34,493 nt of DNA from an uncultured Ruminococcus sp. (lineage in GTDB: Bacteria; Bacillota; Clostridia; Oscillospirales; Ruminococcaceae): the NCBI GenBank assembly GCA_946537515.1, contig CAMNFV010000006.1:1-34493 (forward strand). The letters are read 5' to 3'. The stretch's first letter is position 1. Each line of letters opens with the position of its first letter. This document shows, one piece after another, positions 15,796 through 33,560 of the stretch. Position numbers and translations under genes: made by a program. The notes beneath the pieces are model-generated. The model had not been told where the DNA came from. It saw nothing but the letters and a program-made list of their open reading frames with translations, and ran no database searches.

Positions 15796-15972
15796 TTACC
15801 GGAACCGCCGCTGTGCTTCATCGTAACGGAAGCCTGCGGCGTTCATTTTTTCGGTCAGCGCTTCGCAGTCCAGCTGATGCTCCTCGCAGAATTCCGCAAG
15901 CGTCATACCGGTATCGCGGAGCTGCGTATTCAGAAAGCTGAACAGGATAAATACATCATTCGGAATCTGCAT
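15796..15972 (-). CDS. DUF4250 family small protein
   Basis: A 58-residue protein starting MQIPNDVFILFSFLNTQLRD, with LAEFCEEHQLD and a C-terminal GFRYDEAQRRF. This is the pattern of the clostridial DUF4250 family, whose function is unknown. The start at 15972 is preferred to the track start at 16038: AAGGAG lies upstream and it matches the family N-terminus. It overlaps the end of the C39-like lipoprotein gene by 17 bases, so the two are coupled, although no functional link is known. Confidence 0.8.
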   Translation of the reverse strand: MQIPNDVFILFSFLNTQLRDTGMTLAEFCEEHQLDCEALTEKMNAAGFRYDEAQRRFR

Positions 15973-16882
15973 TGCTGATTTCTTCTCCTTCCGCATCTGC
16001 GTTTTTCGGGACGCGCAGATCCTGCGACATTGCCTCAAGGATCAGCGGGTCAATCACGACTGCCTGCTTATTAAGTCCCTCATAAGCGGTCTCAACCGCC
16101 TTCTTATCGTAAACGGTGATCTCCTTATCCGACATCGAGTCGCAGAAATAATACCAGTCATCGTCATAGCCGACCAGCACGAGCGCATGCTCCGGATTGA
16201 TGAACTTAAAAAGATCGCCGTTCGGCAGCCGCCATTGGAATTCGCTGACATACGGGCGCTGCATGTAGATCGAGCCCCAGAAAATGACAGGCTGTCCCTT
16301 GTCAATATAATCGCTGCAAAGTTCATCAATCGAAACGCCGTCCAGCGGAATCGCAAGGCCTTCCGCAATCTGGTTGATCGCCTTGCTGATCGCGGTATTG
16401 AAGCAGCCGAAGCCGCCGCTGTCCCGCGGATCCCCGATGAAAAACTCCCAGGGGCTTGCACCGTGCAGCTCTCCGTCCTTGCCGTAATCCGGATAGTTCG
16501 CACGCGGCAGGTATTTGTCAATAAATGTATCAAGATCAATATCCACGCCGTAATATTGCAGCACGGAAACTGACGCAATGGATTCACATGCAGTATAATA
16601 GCTGGTAAACTGCGTATAATGCGGGACGCCCTCAATCACAACGCCGTTTCTGTCGTTGTAATTGCCGATTGCGTGCTCCTGCCATTCCGGATCAATCGTG
16701 ACGGTCGTTGTCGTCGTGGGTTCCGTCGTCGTACCGATGATACTCTCGACAATATTCTCCGGCAGCAGTCCCTCAGAATCCCCGGGCGGGGAAATCACCA
16801 CGCCGCATCCGCAAAACAGCAGCGCTGTCAACGGCGCACAGATCAGCATCACCAGATCGTGCGGCCGCAAATGATTCTCCAA
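15956..16882 (-). CDS. C39-like cysteine peptidase domain lipoprotein
   Basis: The start is TTG (the track shows M), supported by GAGGAG eight bases upstream. The 308-residue product has a hydrophobic N-terminus ending LLFCGC, an imperfect lipobox (Cys26), a Thr/Pro-rich wall-spanning linker (residues 50-62), and a C39_2-type papain-like domain. Candidate catalytic residues are Cys99 in YYTACESIAS, His232 in NPEHALVLVGY and Asp248 in FCDSMSD. Such proteins act outside the membrane on peptides or peptidoglycan; the substrate is unknown. It leads a two-gene unit with DUF4250. Confidence 0.83.
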   Translation of the reverse strand: MENHLRPHDLVMLICAPLTALLFCGCGVVISPPGDSEGLLPENIVESIIGTTTEPTTTTTVTIDPEWQEHAIGNYNDRNGVVIEGVPHYTQFTSYYTACESIASVSVLQYYGVDIDLDTFIDKYLPRANYPDYGKDGELHGASPWEFFIGDPRDSGGFGCFNTAISKAINQIAEGLAIPLDGVSIDELCSDYIDKGQPVIFWGSIYMQRPYVSEFQWRLPNGDLFKFINPEHALVLVGYDDDWYYFCDSMSDKEITVYDKKAVETAYEGLNKQAVVIDPLILEAMSQDLRVPKNADAEGEEISNADSE

Positions 16883-26691: not shown

Positions 26692-29600
26692 ATGAAGAAA
26701 TACAGAATCCTATCCGCGCTGACAGCAATCGTGCTGCTTTGCCTGATGCCGTTTCCGCCGCTGCGCGCTCATGCAGAATCCGGCCGGATCGGCAATGACA
26801 TCACATGGGAACTCAAAGACGGCGTCCTGACGCTGACAGGCACAGGCGCGACCGATTCCTTCCAATCGCAGCAGAACTCCCCGCTCTATGCTGTCCGGCT
26901 GGATATCAGCGAAATCGTCATCGGTGAGGGCATCACCGAACTCGGCAGCAATGTCTTTACGACAGTATTTTTTAAGCTGAAATCGCTGACGCTTCCGGAT
27001 TCTCTGCGCCGGATCGGCAGCAATAACTTTACAGGCAATGCACTTGAAGAGATCAACCTGCCGCCCGCTCTGGAATACATCGGCGAACACGCTTTTGAAG
27101 CTTCCACCGGCATTACCGAGCTGGTCATTCCGGATTCCGTGCAGGAGATCGGAGATTACGCCTTCAACGCTGCACACAGCGTGACATCGCTGACGCTTCC
27201 CAATCACAATCTCAAGCTCGGACGCGGTACTTTTCAGGGCTTTACGGCGCTTGAGACCGTACAGCTGCCGGATACGCTCACCGAGATTCCGGATAACCTG
27301 TTCAGCGCCTGTCCCGAAATGCTGGAGATTCAGATTCCGTCAAGCTGCACGCGCATCGGCATGAATGCATTTCACATGACCGGTCTCTGCGAAATCGACA
27401 TTCCGGGGAGCGTTCGGGAAATCGGCGCTGATGCATTTTCCGATTGCATCAGCATCCGGTCAATCACGCTGCATGAGGGCACCGAGATTCTCGGCGACGG
27501 CTGCTTTGCTGATTGCTGCGCAGCAGAGATCCATGTGCCGGAATCGGTGAAATATATCGGCAAGGATTGCTTCTCGGACACGAATGTCGAAACGCTGACG
27601 CTCCCGACACATAAGGATTTGCAGGTCGCGGAGGGCGCGTTGCCGGAGAACTGGCTGAAATCGCAGGAGGGCTTTCTTGTCCTCGGTGACGGCATCCTCT
27701 ATCAGTACCGCGAGCACGCGGAGACAGAAGCTGCGACAGAAACAGCGCCGGAACCGAAACCGGCAGTATCGCTGCCGAAGCCTGCCGCAAATGAATATTC
27801 CGGCAAAATCGGCGACAATATCACATGGGAATATACGGACGGCACCCTGACGCTGACAGGCACCGGCGCGACCTATTCCTATCAGGACCACCATAAGTCC
27901 CCGATCCGATACCACTTCAAAAAGCTCATCATCAGCGAGGGCATCACCGCGCTCGGCGACAATATTTTTCAGCCGTCAGGCATGGAAACAGAAGAGCTCG
28001 TATTTCCGGATTCGCTGAAACGGATCGGCGATAATACCTTTAAAAACAATTATTTCAGCCGGATCACGCTGCCGCCGCATCTGGAATCTATCGGCGACGG
28101 TGCGTTTGCAAACTCTTATAACATCACGGAAATGGTCTTTCCGGATTCGGTCAGAGAGATCGGCGCGAACGCTTTTTCCGGCTGCGGCAATCTGAAACAT
28201 ATCACCCTGCCGGAGCAGAATATCGAATTCGGAAAGGCAGCATTCCAGGGATGCAACAGATTACAGTCCGCGGAGCTGCCGGATGCCGTGACACAGATTC
28301 CGAATCAGATGTTTATGAATTGCAGATCGCTGCGCAGCGTCCATATTCCGGAAAACTGCGTCAGCATCGGCATGCAGGCCTTTTCCCAGACCATTCTCGA
28401 AGAAATCGACATTCCCGCGAATACAAAGGATGTCAGCGGCTATGCGTTTCAGAATTGCAGATATCTCAAAACAATCAACATACAGGAAGGCGTTGAATCG
28501 CTCGGCGAATGCTGCTTTGACGGCTGCTCCGCGCCGGAAATTCACCTGCCGGATTCGCTGAAATACATCGGCAAAGATTGCTTCTCTGACAGATTCGTCA
28601 GAACGCTGACGCTCCCCGACAATCAGGAGCTGCTCGCAGAAGAGAATTCGCTGCCGGAAAACTGGCTGAAAACACAGACCGGATTTCTCATTGTCGGCAG
28701 CATCCTCTATCAGTACCGCGAAGAAGCGGAGCCGGTTGAATTTTCCGATCCGGATATATATGTTCTGGAGGGCAGACTCGGTGACGATATCACCTGGAAA
28801 TATGACGATAACACCATTTTCATCTCCGGCACCGGCGCAACCTATCCGGAACGCACCGGTATGATTACCCAGCCCCTGTTTGTCGTCGATAAAATCGTCA
28901 TCGGGGAAGGCATCACAGAAATCGGTGACGGCGCTCTGTATAACCCGCAATGGAAGATCCGGGAGATTGAACTGCCGGATTCGCTGAAACGGGTCGGTAA
29001 GAATTTCATCTACAGTTACAATCTGAAATCACTCAACCTTCCGCCGCACCTGGAATCTATCGGGGAAGGCGCGTTCAGCAATCTCGGTCAGATCACAGAA
29101 CTGACTATTCCGGATTCTGTCACAGAAATTGGAAGCGGTGCATTTCTGGATTGTTACTATTTGAGAGAAGTACATCTGCCGGATTCGCTCACCGAGATTC
29201 CGGAGTACATGTTTGTACGCTGCAACGCCCTGCGCGAAATCAATATTCCGGCAAGCTGCACGCGCATCGGTGACAATGCATTTACCGGCGCGGCTTTTAC
29301 GGCGATCGACATTCCGGGCAGCGTAAAGGAAATCGGTGCAAGTGCATTTGAAGGCTGCTGGGATCTCTCCGATATCACGCTGCATGAGGGGCTTGAAAAG
29401 CTCGGAGACCGCTGCTTCTATAACTGCCCTGCCAAAGATGTCAGCATTCCGGAATCCGTGAAGGAGATCGGCGCAGACTGCTTCTATCAGGAAGAACGGC
29501 TAAGCACCCAATCGGATATATTATACGGCACAGAGGCGAGCAATGACATCGCAGAGGACACGGAAAGCAGCACAGAACCGACAACCTATACGGAAGCTGT

Positions 29601-31854
29601 CATCCCGTCCCCTGCGCTGCCGGAGCCTGCCGCAGAGGTACAGTCCGGCAAGCTCGGCGACAATATCACATGGGAGATCAAAGACGACACCCTGACGCTG
29701 ACCGGCACCGGCGCGACCTATTCCTATGATGACTACCGCGATACGCCCTTTTACGGACTCAAAACGCCGGAGCGAATCATCATCGGCGAAGGCATCACCG
29801 GGATCGGAGATAATGCGCTCTGTGCGTTTGACAGAAGCACCCTTGTCGATTTTGTGAAACAAGGAGCGAACAAAGAAATTGTTTTTCCGGATTCGCTGCT
29901 GCGGATCGGCGAAATGAATTTTGAAGGGTTTGAGGGAGATCAACTTATTTTGCCGCCCGCTCTGGAATATATCGGGGAAGATGCATTCAGCTCTATGCTG
30001 CATGTTACGGAGCTTGTCATTCCGGAATCCGTCAAAGAAATCGGAGCATGCGCTTTTTCTTCGTCCCCCCTGCTGCAAAAAGTCAAGCTGCCTGATACAG
30101 ATATCCGGCTCCGGGAACAGGTTTTTGCAGGCTGCTGGGCGCTGAGTGAAATCCATCTTCCGGACAGAATGACAGAGATCCCGTCTTCGCTGCTGAACGG
30201 CTGTCTCAATCTGAGAGAAGTCCGTATCCCGCCGCAGGTCACATGCATCGGCTATAGTGCATTCAGTTATTGCGGCCTGAAGAAAATCGAACTGCCGGAA
30301 TCTGTGAAAGAAATCAAGGACGGTGCCTTTGAAAACTGTGCGCATCTGTCCGAGGTCACGCTGAACGACGGACTTGAAACAATCGGCAAGGATGCATTTC
30401 GCGGTTGTCCGATCGTAGAACTTCAGATTCCGGAATCCGTCACGACGCTCGAAGAATTCTTCTGCTCCTCGGCCGCGCCGAATATCCCGGATCAGATTCA
30501 GACGCTGAAGCTTCCGACGCACAAAGATTTACAGCTTGCTGAAAATGCGCTTCCTCAGACATGGGTTGAGGCGCAGAAGGGATTCCTGGTGCTCGGCGAC
30601 GGGCTCCTCTACCATTACACAGCGGACGGCGACTCTGATACGCTGATCGTTCCGGATGGCGTCAAGGTCATTTATCCTGCCGCATTTGACGGCCTGCATA
30701 TCAAGACGCTCATCCTGCCGGATACGGTTCAGGAGATCCGCTCGAAAGCGTTCGTTGACTGCGAAATCGACACGATCATATTCAAGGGACAGGTCGATTT
30801 CATTGCAGCGGATATGCTGTCAAATTCCAAGGTACAGAAAATACAATCCAAATATTATACCAACGGACAGGTATTCGCAATGGATTCCGGTATTCCGTTT
30901 GTCCCATCGGAAGCAGATCAGCCCGGCACACCGAAAACACCGGATCCGGAAACCGAACTGCTGCCATTCGGCAATAACGGCGGCGTTTTCGGCGAAACCT
31001 ATCAGATGAATGATGAAACCAGAAAGGTTCTGCTGAATTATACGCTGAAGAGCCATATTGAATCGGTAAAAGAAGACCTTGCAAAGCCCTGGGGCGGCTC
31101 TTGCTTCGGGCTCTCCACCGTCACGATGCTGGTGCAATCCGGGATGCTTCCGCTTTCCGCACTCGATCCCGATGCAAAAACGCTGCATGACGTAAAGCCC
31201 GGAACACAGGCCGTTGATATCATCAATTACTATCAAATGACAAATACATATTTGCAGTATCTTTATCATATAAACTATCCGAATGAACGCACACAATTCC
31301 AGAAGCTCTGCCATATTATCCGCTGCGCAAATGAATATAATAACGACGGTACACCGTTTGTCATCACGATTCAAACAAAAGGCGGCGGCGGACATGCTGT
31401 TGTCGGATACGGAATCGAATCCGGCAGCTGGGAATGGAACGATCAGGTCTACAGCCGCCGCATCCGTATCTGGGATTCCAATTATGAGGGGCTGGACGAC
31501 CGCTGCTGTATCTATTTCGACCCGGACTCGCTGCATTTTACACTCCCTGCCTACGGCATTGTCTACAACATGAACAAAACAGCTGATACCGGCTGTATCA
31601 ACATGGTTCACAACAATCCTGCGGACTTCTGCGCATATCCGATTCCTTCGCAGCTGATCAAAGGCGACCTCAACCGCGATCAGCAGACAACAATCGCCGA
31701 TGCTGTTCTCTTTGCAAGATACCTTGCGGAAGACAGCGAACTCCCGGCAGATGTTTACAGGAATGTATTCCTTGCAGATTACAATGCAGATGATATCTTT
31801 GACTATACCGACCTGATGAAGCTCTTATCTGCAATTACAACAAAAGCCGCCTGA
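26692..31854 (+). CDS. Secreted BspA-type leucine-rich-repeat protein with papain-like domain and dockerin
   Basis: A 1720-residue protein. A signal peptide (MKKYRILSAL..., cleavage near AHA-ES) is followed by four modules beginning near residues 31, 371, 694 and 986. Each opens with a GxxGxxITWE...LTLTGTGAT cap and continues as an LRR_5/BspA array (IPDSVxEIGxxAFxxC-type repeats). Acidic Pro/Thr linkers separate some modules. Residues about 1424-1630 look like a papain-type peptidase: Cys1471 in WGGSCFGLS, His1568 in GGGHAVVGYG, and Asp1595/Asn1597 in IWDSNYEG. A type I dockerin (about 1658-1716) follows, with two calcium loops (DLNRDQQTTIAD, DYNADDIFDYTD). It is probably docked onto a cohesin scaffold outside the cell and may bind or cut protein. 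GAAAGGAG precedes the ATG. Confidence 0.92.
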   Translation: MKKYRILSALTAIVLLCLMPFPPLRAHAESGRIGNDITWELKDGVLTLTGTGATDSFQSQQNSPLYAVRLDISEIVIGEGITELGSNVFTTVFFKLKSLTLPDSLRRIGSNNFTGNALEEINLPPALEYIGEHAFEASTGITELVIPDSVQEIGDYAFNAAHSVTSLTLPNHNLKLGRGTFQGFTALETVQLPDTLTEIPDNLFSACPEMLEIQIPSSCTRIGMNAFHMTGLCEIDIPGSVREIGADAFSDCISIRSITLHEGTEILGDGCFADCCAAEIHVPESVKYIGKDCFSDTNVETLTLPTHKDLQVAEGALPENWLKSQEGFLVLGDGILYQYREHAETEAATETAPEPKPAVSLPKPAANEYSGKIGDNITWEYTDGTLTLTGTGATYSYQDHHKSPIRYHFKKLIISEGITALGDNIFQPSGMETEELVFPDSLKRIGDNTFKNNYFSRITLPPHLESIGDGAFANSYNITEMVFPDSVREIGANAFSGCGNLKHITLPEQNIEFGKAAFQGCNRLQSAELPDAVTQIPNQMFMNCRSLRSVHIPENCVSIGMQAFSQTILEEIDIPANTKDVSGYAFQNCRYLKTINIQEGVESLGECCFDGCSAPEIHLPDSLKYIGKDCFSDRFVRTLTLPDNQELLAEENSLPENWLKTQTGFLIVGSILYQYREEAEPVEFSDPDIYVLEGRLGDDITWKYDDNTIFISGTGATYPERTGMITQPLFVVDKIVIGEGITEIGDGALYNPQWKIREIELPDSLKRVGKNFIYSYNLKSLNLPPHLESIGEGAFSNLGQITELTIPDSVTEIGSGAFLDCYYLREVHLPDSLTEIPEYMFVRCNALREINIPASCTRIGDNAFTGAAFTAIDIPGSVKEIGASAFEGCWDLSDITLHEGLEKLGDRCFYNCPAKDVSIPESVKEIGADCFYQEERLSTQSDILYGTEASNDIAEDTESSTEPTTYTEAVIPSPALPEPAAEVQSGKLGDNITWEIKDDTLTLTGTGATYSYDDYRDTPFYGLKTPERIIIGEGITGIGDNALCAFDRSTLVDFVKQGANKEIVFPDSLLRIGEMNFEGFEGDQLILPPALEYIGEDAFSSMLHVTELVIPESVKEIGACAFSSSPLLQKVKLPDTDIRLREQVFAGCWALSEIHLPDRMTEIPSSLLNGCLNLREVRIPPQVTCIGYSAFSYCGLKKIELPESVKEIKDGAFENCAHLSEVTLNDGLETIGKDAFRGCPIVELQIPESVTTLEEFFCSSAAPNIPDQIQTLKLPTHKDLQLAENALPQTWVEAQKGFLVLGDGLLYHYTADGDSDTLIVPDGVKVIYPAAFDGLHIKTLILPDTVQEIRSKAFVDCEIDTIIFKGQVDFIAADMLSNSKVQKIQSKYYTNGQVFAMDSGIPFVPSEADQPGTPKTPDPETELLPFGNNGGVFGETYQMNDETRKVLLNYTLKSHIESVKEDLAKPWGGSCFGLSTVTMLVQSGMLPLSALDPDAKTLHDVKPGTQAVDIINYYQMTNTYLQYLYHINYPNERTQFQKLCHIIRCANEYNNDGTPFVITIQTKGGGGHAVVGYGIESGSWEWNDQVYSRRIRIWDSNYEGLDDRCCIYFDPDSLHFTLPAYGIVYNMNKTADTGCINMVHNNPADFCAYPIPSQLIKGDLNRDQQTTIADAVLFARYLAEDSELPADVYRNVFLADYNADDIFDYTDLMKLLSAITTKAA
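26782..30900 (+). repeat. Four-fold repeated cap plus leucine-rich-repeat modules
   Basis: The four caps start near 26782, 27802, 28771 and 29647. Caps 2 and 4 are nearly identical at DNA level (shared GACAATATCACATGGGA and a GGCACCGGCGCGACCTATTC run), while cap 3 is divergent. The pattern implies internal duplication, with copies 2 and 4 related most recently. Confidence 0.8.
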
Positions 31855-31870
31855 CGGCAACATACAGCAC

Positions 31871-31909
31871 AGCCGCTGAAATCTCGCTTAGAGGCAGATT
31901 TCAGCGGCT
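31871..31909 (+). terminator. Terminator of the leucine-rich-repeat gene
   Basis: A 14-base-pair perfect stem (AGCCGCTGAAATCT with AGATTTCAGCGGCT) followed by TGTCTTTTTG, 16 bases after the stop. Confidence 0.92.
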
Positions 31910-32075
31910 TGTCTTTTTGATTGATACAGATTCATCCGCCGCGGCAGGAGACTGCCTGCTCTTGTACACAAGATTTGCCATGCTGACAACTGAACGCGTT
32001 TTCATCAGATTGCATAAAACCCTTCTATCACTCTTGTTCATCTGAACAAAAGTGAAATGAATTATTGAAAACTAC

Positions 32076-32104
32076 TTGACAACATTTTAAACAAGATGTA
32101 TAAT
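32076..32104 (+). promoter_or_regulatory. Promoter of the second dockerin gene
   Basis: TTGACA, 17-base spacer, TATAAT. The start codon is about 150 bases downstream. The 401 bases between the two dockerin genes hold the terminator, this promoter and the long leader. Confidence 0.87.
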
Positions 32105-32255: not shown

Positions 32256-33560
32256 ATGAAGAATGTATCTGCGAAGCTTACCTCCGCTTTTCTGGCGGGC
32301 GCGACCGGATTGATTTCTTTCTCCGGTTTCTCTGCACCGATCTGTGCAAGCGCTGCCGATGCCTATGAATACGCGATCTTCCCGCTGCGCACAATGTGCG
32401 TTACGCAGCTTGCCTTTGAAGGCTCACATAACAATTCCTATCATATGGATTGCAGCGGAAAATATGAAGAGTATGCAGCAGCGCCGTTCACCGGCCGGGT
32501 TGTGTATACAACAGAAAATTACGGTCTGGTACTGTTTCAGAGCTGTGAGCCTGTTCATTATGCGGACGGCACGCTGGATTACATGACAGTCATCTTCATG
32601 CATTGCGCCAATACGGATGAGCTCGCAGAATACCGCGCAGCTGAGACTGTCGTTCCGCAGGGAACCGATCTGATCCGCTGCGGCGGCATCGGCAGGGACG
32701 GCGAAGAGGAATACGTCAGGCATTTTGATATCGGCATCTACAAAGGACAAATCGCTTCCCCGTTTGATCCGCCGGAAGCAGGCGGCGTTTACAGCCGGCT
32801 CGGTAATATCTATCCGTTTGAGGGATTCTTCGTTGATCCCGACCGGACGGTCAATATCGTAAACTGGGGCACACTCGTCAACGGCCATACGCTCGCAAAG
32901 GGCGATTATTCCGACTGGAAGAGCTGCTGGGTTTCGCTCAAGGATGCGGATACTGTGCAGGCACAGCCGGCAAAGACATATGAACAGCCCGCAGTCTCCA
33001 CTACACCGGCTGCATCCTCGGAAACGGTAAAATCCGAAGCACCGCCGGAGAAGCGGATGCCGGAAAAGCCGCTGGTTTCCGTCAGCAGCGCAGATGAGGT
33101 CGTGATCTCCTATCAGGACTGCGAAAACGCGACATACTACAATGTCCGTGTATACGACAGCAGCAGCCGTCAGGTTGCATACTGCGTCGGCGTCTGCGAG
33201 GATGCAAATCCGTTCAACGAATGCAGAGTCTTTACGGATACCAGCCTCTCGCATGTCTTTGCACCCGGCTCCTATTACGTTCGTGTGACGGCGGTCAACA
33301 AGGCAGACGGTACCGCGGTTGCATCCGATGCGGTTTCATTTGAAGTCGCACTTCCGGAATATGCAGGCAGCGGCGATCTCGACGGCAATACCTATGTCAA
33401 TGCCGCAGATGTCCGGCTGATGACACGCTGCATCGGCGGAAATGCCGACCTGAAGCAATCCGGCATGATCGCTGCCGACATGAATTTTGACGGCATTGTG
33501 AATGCAGCGGATCTCTCGATCCTGAAGCGCAATGTCCTTTCGCAAAATCAGGCTGCTTAA
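32256..33560 (+). CDS. Secreted M23-like protein with Fn3-like and dockerin domains
   Basis: A 434-residue protein with a signal peptide (about residues 1-33, ending ICASA). Residues about 45-235 resemble the LytM/M23 fold: HNNSYHMDCSG, then APFTGRVVYT, YGLVLFQS and VIFMHCANTDEL. The usual HxH motif reads MHC, so zinc peptidase activity is doubtful. A Pro/Glu/Ala linker (240-275) leads to a fibronectin-III-like domain (about 277-365), then a type I dockerin from residue 373 with loops DLDGNTYVNAAD and DMNFDGIVNAAD. It is probably a scaffold-attached surface protein, perhaps wall-binding. AAAGGGAG precedes the ATG. It stands alone between two terminators. Confidence 0.85.
   Translation: MKNVSAKLTSAFLAGATGLISFSGFSAPICASAADAYEYAIFPLRTMCVTQLAFEGSHNNSYHMDCSGKYEEYAAAPFTGRVVYTTENYGLVLFQSCEPVHYADGTLDYMTVIFMHCANTDELAEYRAAETVVPQGTDLIRCGGIGRDGEEEYVRHFDIGIYKGQIASPFDPPEAGGVYSRLGNIYPFEGFFVDPDRTVNIVNWGTLVNGHTLAKGDYSDWKSCWVSLKDADTVQAQPAKTYEQPAVSTTPAASSETVKSEAPPEKRMPEKPLVSVSSADEVVISYQDCENATYYNVRVYDSSSRQVAYCVGVCEDANPFNECRVFTDTSLSHVFAPGSYYVRVTAVNKADGTAVASDAVSFEVALPEYAGSGDLDGNTYVNAADVRLMTRCIGGNADLKQSGMIAADMNFDGIVNAADLSILKRNVLSQNQAA

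Follow-up and report, generated by a model that had tools for sequence, protein, structure and literature searches.

A secreted leucine-rich-repeat protein of a Ruminococcus sp. with a dockerin and a putative papain-like cysteine peptidase domain

What might a 1,720-residue protein do that joins, in one chain, a long array of leucine-rich repeats (LRRs), a domain with a candidate Cys/His/Asp triad and a dockerin? The gene lies in a stretch of 34,493 nucleotides (the window) from an uncultured Ruminococcus sp., a gut bacterium that digests plant fibre (contig CAMNFV010000006.1). A sequence-only reading had proposed four BspA-type modules, a Cys/His/Asp domain and a dockerin for this protein, and each part was recovered: the open reading frame is intact (26692-31854, +), the LRRs and the dockerin match their profiles and the triad is conserved in relatives. 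The frame begins with ATG, a short distance after the Shine-Dalgarno-like sequence AAAGGAG. Its features are collected in Table 1.

Table 1 Features of the gene and of the encoded 1,720-residue protein, with positions in the window
Feature	Position	Strand	Basis
Signal peptide, aa 1-28, MKKYRILSALTAIVLLCLMPFPPLRAHA	26692..26775	+	By eye from translation
BspA-type LRR module 1, aa 31-370	26782..27801	+	LRR_5 matches; 50% identity with module 2
BspA-type LRR module 2, aa 371-693	27802..28770	+	LRR_5 best stretch aa 466-593; self-similarity
BspA-type LRR module 3, aa 694-985	28771..29646	+	LRR_5 matches; self-similarity
BspA-type LRR module 4, aa 986-1390, including extra LRR copies before the linker	29647..30861	+	LRR_5 matches to 30849; AlphaFold2 solenoid
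Linker, aa 1391-1421, P/T/E-rich near its end; limits approximate	30862..30954	+	Translation
Papain-like cysteine peptidase-type domain, aa 1422-1653	30955..31650	+	Conservation in 62 relatives; AlphaFold2 pLDDT 94.6, pTM 0.92
Cys1471, putative nucleophile, GGSCFGLS	31102..31104	+	62/62 in alignment A2; N-terminal end of helix in model
His1568, putative general base, GHAVVGYG	31393..31395	+	62/62 in A2 (count biased, see text); start of strand in model
Asp1595, putative third triad member, WDSN	31474..31476	+	Asp 56/62, Asn 6/62 in A2; end of next strand in model
Dockerin, aa 1657-1711, with Ca-binding loops DLNRDQQTTIAD and DYNADDIFDYTD	31660..31824	+	PF00404 25.4 bits
Intrinsic terminator, perfect 14-bp stem AGCCGCTGAAATCT/AGATTTCAGCGGCT, 11-nt loop, T-rich tail	31871..31918	+	Read from sequence

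The terminator is absent from the automatic scan, in which the loop maximum was 8. As the gene is followed by this terminator and the gene downstream has its own consensus promoter (TTGACA-17-TATAAT, 32076-32104), the two are probably transcribed separately. The downstream gene (32256-33560, +) encodes a secreted protein of 434 residues with a NAADL-type dockerin (47 bits); the N-terminal part of that protein has no Pfam match and, by eye, perhaps has a degenerate M23-like fold.

The LRR_5 profile (PF13306) places the four N-terminal modules unambiguously in the BspA-type LRR family; it matched the protein in 11 stretches with 730.8 bits (E 8e-224; cut-off 27.7). Each module opens with G-[RK]-[IL]-G-[ND]-[DN]-ITW, and pairwise identity among the four is 34-50%. 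An AlphaFold2 model of residues 986-1720 contains a repeated-strand solenoid with pLDDT mostly above 80; the pTM of this model, made from only 8 sequences, is 0.65, and it gives no orientation of the LRR arm relative to the active site. The usual role of BspA-type LRRs is protein binding. In contrast to other BspA-type surface proteins, the present one joins its LRRs to a dockerin and a domain of peptidase type.

The dockerin scored 25.4 bits in the six-frame search (cut-off 22.9) and 18.9 bits in a whole-protein scan, and its two calcium-binding loops are readable by eye. It resembles the DAVLLARFVAED-type dockerins of the same genome, including that of a GH9-like protein encoded next to a sca-type cluster. 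The idea that the protein is borne on a scaffold presupposes cohesins in this genome, and these were found: the genome has 142 dockerin, 17 cohesin and 116 LRR_5 matches, with about 20 open frames carrying both LRR_5 and a dockerin (matched by hand via contig and frame length). The sca-type cluster, on contig C35, where scaffoldin names were assigned by resemblance, encodes a multi-cohesin protein of 2,131 residues with a C-terminal dockerin region, a 652-residue protein that ends in a dockerin and in which one domain, by eye, resembles those of the big scaffoldin, a cohesin protein of 319 residues whose tail is sortase-like, and a small cohesin-dockerin protein of 307 residues. Attachment of the 1,720-residue protein to a scaffold is credible, given the dockerins, the 17 cohesin matches and the sca-type cluster of its genome. 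At locus L197 (6170-12565, -) the cohesins of a ScaB-like scaffoldin are separated by long linkers of threonine-valine-serine (TVS) repeats.

The LRR-peptidase-dockerin architecture is already known, since R. flavefaciens FD-1 protein ZP_06144185 is listed with the same module order, as 'UNK-LRR-Cysteine proteinase-Doc' (PMC5301203, Sci Rep 2017, Table 1, row 52). It too comes from a cellulosome-bearing organism, the two proteins being compared by listed module order alone. The dockerin of ZP_06144185 belongs to group 6b and binds the ScaC cohesin, whereas the dockerin of the 1,720-residue protein is similar to those of DAVLLARFVAED type in the genome that encodes it, so the cohesin partner may differ; most dockerins of FD-1 LRR proteins were negative with the cohesins tested on microarrays (PMC5301203). 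The sequence-only reading had taken cellulosome parts to be mostly carbohydrate enzymes, among which a peptidase would stand out, a view that the FD-1 literature does not support: of its dockerin proteins, which number more than 220, just 36% are carbohydrate enzymes (PMC3573020), and a set of 222 dockerin proteins included 28 LRR modules and 16 peptidase modules (PMC2930009). We found the domain family described in none of these papers.

The nature of the Cys/His/Asp domain was examined in relatives taken from the same genome, from genomes of the family and from a genome collection (alignment A2, 62 sequences). Earlier limits of 1424-1630 proved close; conservation and the domain model favour about 1422-1653. 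The triad residues are kept, at the frequencies given in Table 1, in relatives with about 20-60% identity, which makes a chance triad untenable; the His motif served as the seed of the genome-collection scan, which biases the count for His1568 and leaves that for Cys1471 unbiased. Among 52 further copies from the genus that were not selected by motif, 47 have C-H-D, three C-H-N and two N-E-N, with Cys and His retained in 50 of the 52; this distribution points to selection for catalysis in the domain family. There are exceptions. Copies L165 and L168, in two genomes, have N/E/N in an open frame and are possibly pseudo-enzymes kept for binding. Cys is missing from L013, L015, L021 and L027, and in L013/L045 the change of Cys to Asp is accompanied by an in-frame stop (TAA) within the domain, the mark of a decaying copy.

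An AlphaFold2 model of the domain, computed from A2, bore out the proposal of a papain-like topology. In it Cys opens helix 56-67, His opens strand 152-167 and Asp directly follows strand 170-179. Judged from the secondary structure of the model, the order and placement of the triad are those of clan CA, in which a helix begins with the Cys, a strand begins with the His, and Asp or Asn closes the strand that follows. A conserved Gln or Asn about six residues before the Cys, as in a classical oxyanion hole, was not found in A2, where positions 1465-1466 vary freely. Asn1428 is present in 61 of the 61 sequences aligned at that position and might act as a stand-in.

The domain was then compared with named families. 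Pfam yielded nothing for it with the threshold relaxed to E 10, NCBIfam gave no match, PDB sequences gave none of note and a viral library search found nothing. The NCBIfam names HupY and Gli349 scored far under their cut-offs, through LRR similarity only, and the phmmer matches to a flagellar cap and a ferritin in the PDB were chance. Xylella cysteine protease 3ois gave a weak sequence match (E 0.036) aligned at the His. A Foldseek search of the PDB with the domain model returned nothing with E below 1e-3. The best papain-like matches, a Bacteroides fragilis type VI secretion effector (9jdd, probability 0.89, TM 0.26-0.31) and AvrPphB (1ukf, E 0.086), superposed poorly, and the norovirus and hepatitis A 3C proteases were set aside (TM about 0.15-0.2, probability at most 0.2).

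The nearest named family, as judged by sequence, is Peptidase_C39_2 (PF13529). One relative, L058, scored 24.8 bits against the Pfam cut-off of 24.0 over a stretch that runs from the Cys to the His, and profile-profile comparison (hhalign) gave E 2.6e-4 and Prob 42, with the catalytic His residues in register and an alignment of only 46 columns around them. The domain of the 1,720-residue protein itself, in contrast, did not reach the Pfam cut-off. We infer that it belongs to clan CA, in a divergent branch that lies near C39 and has not been catalogued. A separate Peptidase_C39_2 gene is present in the window (15956-16882, -; 308 residues, 55.9 bits) and lies outside the present finding.

A papain fold may serve reactions other than proteolysis, and the domain could instead cross-link bound proteins as a transglutaminase does, deamidate them or transfer acyl groups to them, and in this way attach the cell or its cellulosome to a partner. 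Transglutaminases use the same order of triad residues, FD-1 has transglutaminase-like proteins borne on dockerins (PMC2930009), and Transglutaminase_core matches are common in the present genome (8). However, Transglut_core (PF01841) matched neither the domain nor its relatives, and the profile comparison gave E 0.07, close to background, as against 2.6e-4 for C39_2. We therefore consider this alternative unlikely.

Slightly less probable again is an amidase or endopeptidase that acts on peptidoglycan, either of bacteria nearby or of the organism's own wall. The best Foldseek match, the effector 9jdd, would favour it, as would the FD-1 cellulosome protein RflaF_05439, in which a dockerin-bearing, papain-like NlpC/P60-like module has been described (PDB 4EYZ, PMC3573020); that protein differs in having a tandem module and an X-dockerin, and no LRR. 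Against this stand the poor superposition on 9jdd and the lack of any match to NlpC/P60 (PF00877) or another wall-hydrolase Pfam profile in the domain or its relatives; the hhalign value for NlpC/P60 (E 0.32) was the same as those of reversed controls (about 0.3). 4EYZ was not among the matches listed in the sequence and structure searches with the domain. An arm of BspA-type LRRs also argues for a protein partner.

The domain might also be a processing peptidase whose targets are parts of the cellulosome, or the LRR protein to which it belongs, and which serves in their maturation, trimming or release. C39, the nearest family, includes leader-processing enzymes, and a docked enzyme would adjoin scaffoldins and their enzymes. 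Up to 11 diverse copies in one genome suggest many targets, not one housekeeping cut, and we regard this role as improbable. That the LRR arm is the active part of a non-catalytic adhesin, with the domain a relic, would accord with the copies that lack the triad or the Cys, but is very hard to maintain for a protein with a full triad, in a family that keeps Cys and His in nearly every unselected copy of the genus.

The genome encodes three LRR-peptidase-dockerin proteins, namely the 1,720-residue protein and those of loci L008 and L009, both partial, whose dockerins are likewise of the DAVLLARFVAED type. When 249 genomes sampled from the family were searched with a single sequence, 9 had the domain; a search of this kind returned nothing from the genome collection, where a profile scan gave 58 loci. 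Within the genus 25 of 30 genomes carry it, and a sample of 341 genomes of the class yielded it in six besides the present one. When 44 of the proteins were scanned at full length, Dockerin_1 was found in 28 and LRR_5 in 26. A few relatives bear other surface modules (Big_2, choline-binding) and the domain is therefore not strictly cellulosomal. The closest relative found, L057 from water buffalo rumen, has 60% identity in the domain and ends in a dockerin of a different type, so it appears from these sequences that the docking part has been exchanged and the peptidase kept. Two copies of the domain occur per open frame in L080 and in a frame common to L015 and L021. Distant relatives were also seen outside the ruminococci, in a Caldilineaceae bin (L083), with four copies on one contig.

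We put the probability that the 1,720-residue protein is a secreted, cellulosome-docked cysteine peptidase at roughly two in three, and an enzyme of this kind, of already known layout, is the most likely description. The first proposal, in so far as it describes a protein on a scaffold that combines a binding arm with a peptidase-like domain, is well supported at the sequence level. As a docked peptidase, the protein would be plugged into a scaffoldin by its dockerin, and the LRR arm of about 1,350 residues would bind a protein, a cell or a fibre surface and so bring the target to the peptidase. Cys1471, activated by His1568, itself oriented by Asp1595, would then attack the peptide bond through an acyl-enzyme mechanism. 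This mechanism of cleavage is plausible and partly supported. The likeliest job would be the cutting of proteins at the fibre surface, by which polysaccharide would be exposed or peptides released. As a guess, the substrates would be plant cell-wall proteins, proteins coating the fibre or surface proteins of neighbours competing for it. For the roles first suggested, degradation of host or competitor proteins, or defence, there is no evidence either way.

A wider proposal can be made from the presence of the domain in most genomes of the genus, its high copy number and the varied LRR arms and dockerin types that accompany it. The domain may represent a papain-fold peptidase family, so far unlisted, whose expansion in fibre-degrading ruminococci went along with that of the cellulosome. 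It would then form a proteolytic branch of the cellulosome that selects its targets and removes protein from rivals or from plant fibre. We offer this tentatively, and it is rather doubtful as a whole.

The part to follow up is the domain family, which none of the domain libraries searched names and which merits an entry in them. The presence of many LRR and peptidase parts in ruminococcal cellulosomes is an old puzzle, and it becomes testable through one construct of 240 residues. Cellulosomes have mainly been viewed as carbohydrate machines; here a family of peptidase-type domains, present in multiple copies and nearly throughout the genus, is carried on LRR arms and dockerins.
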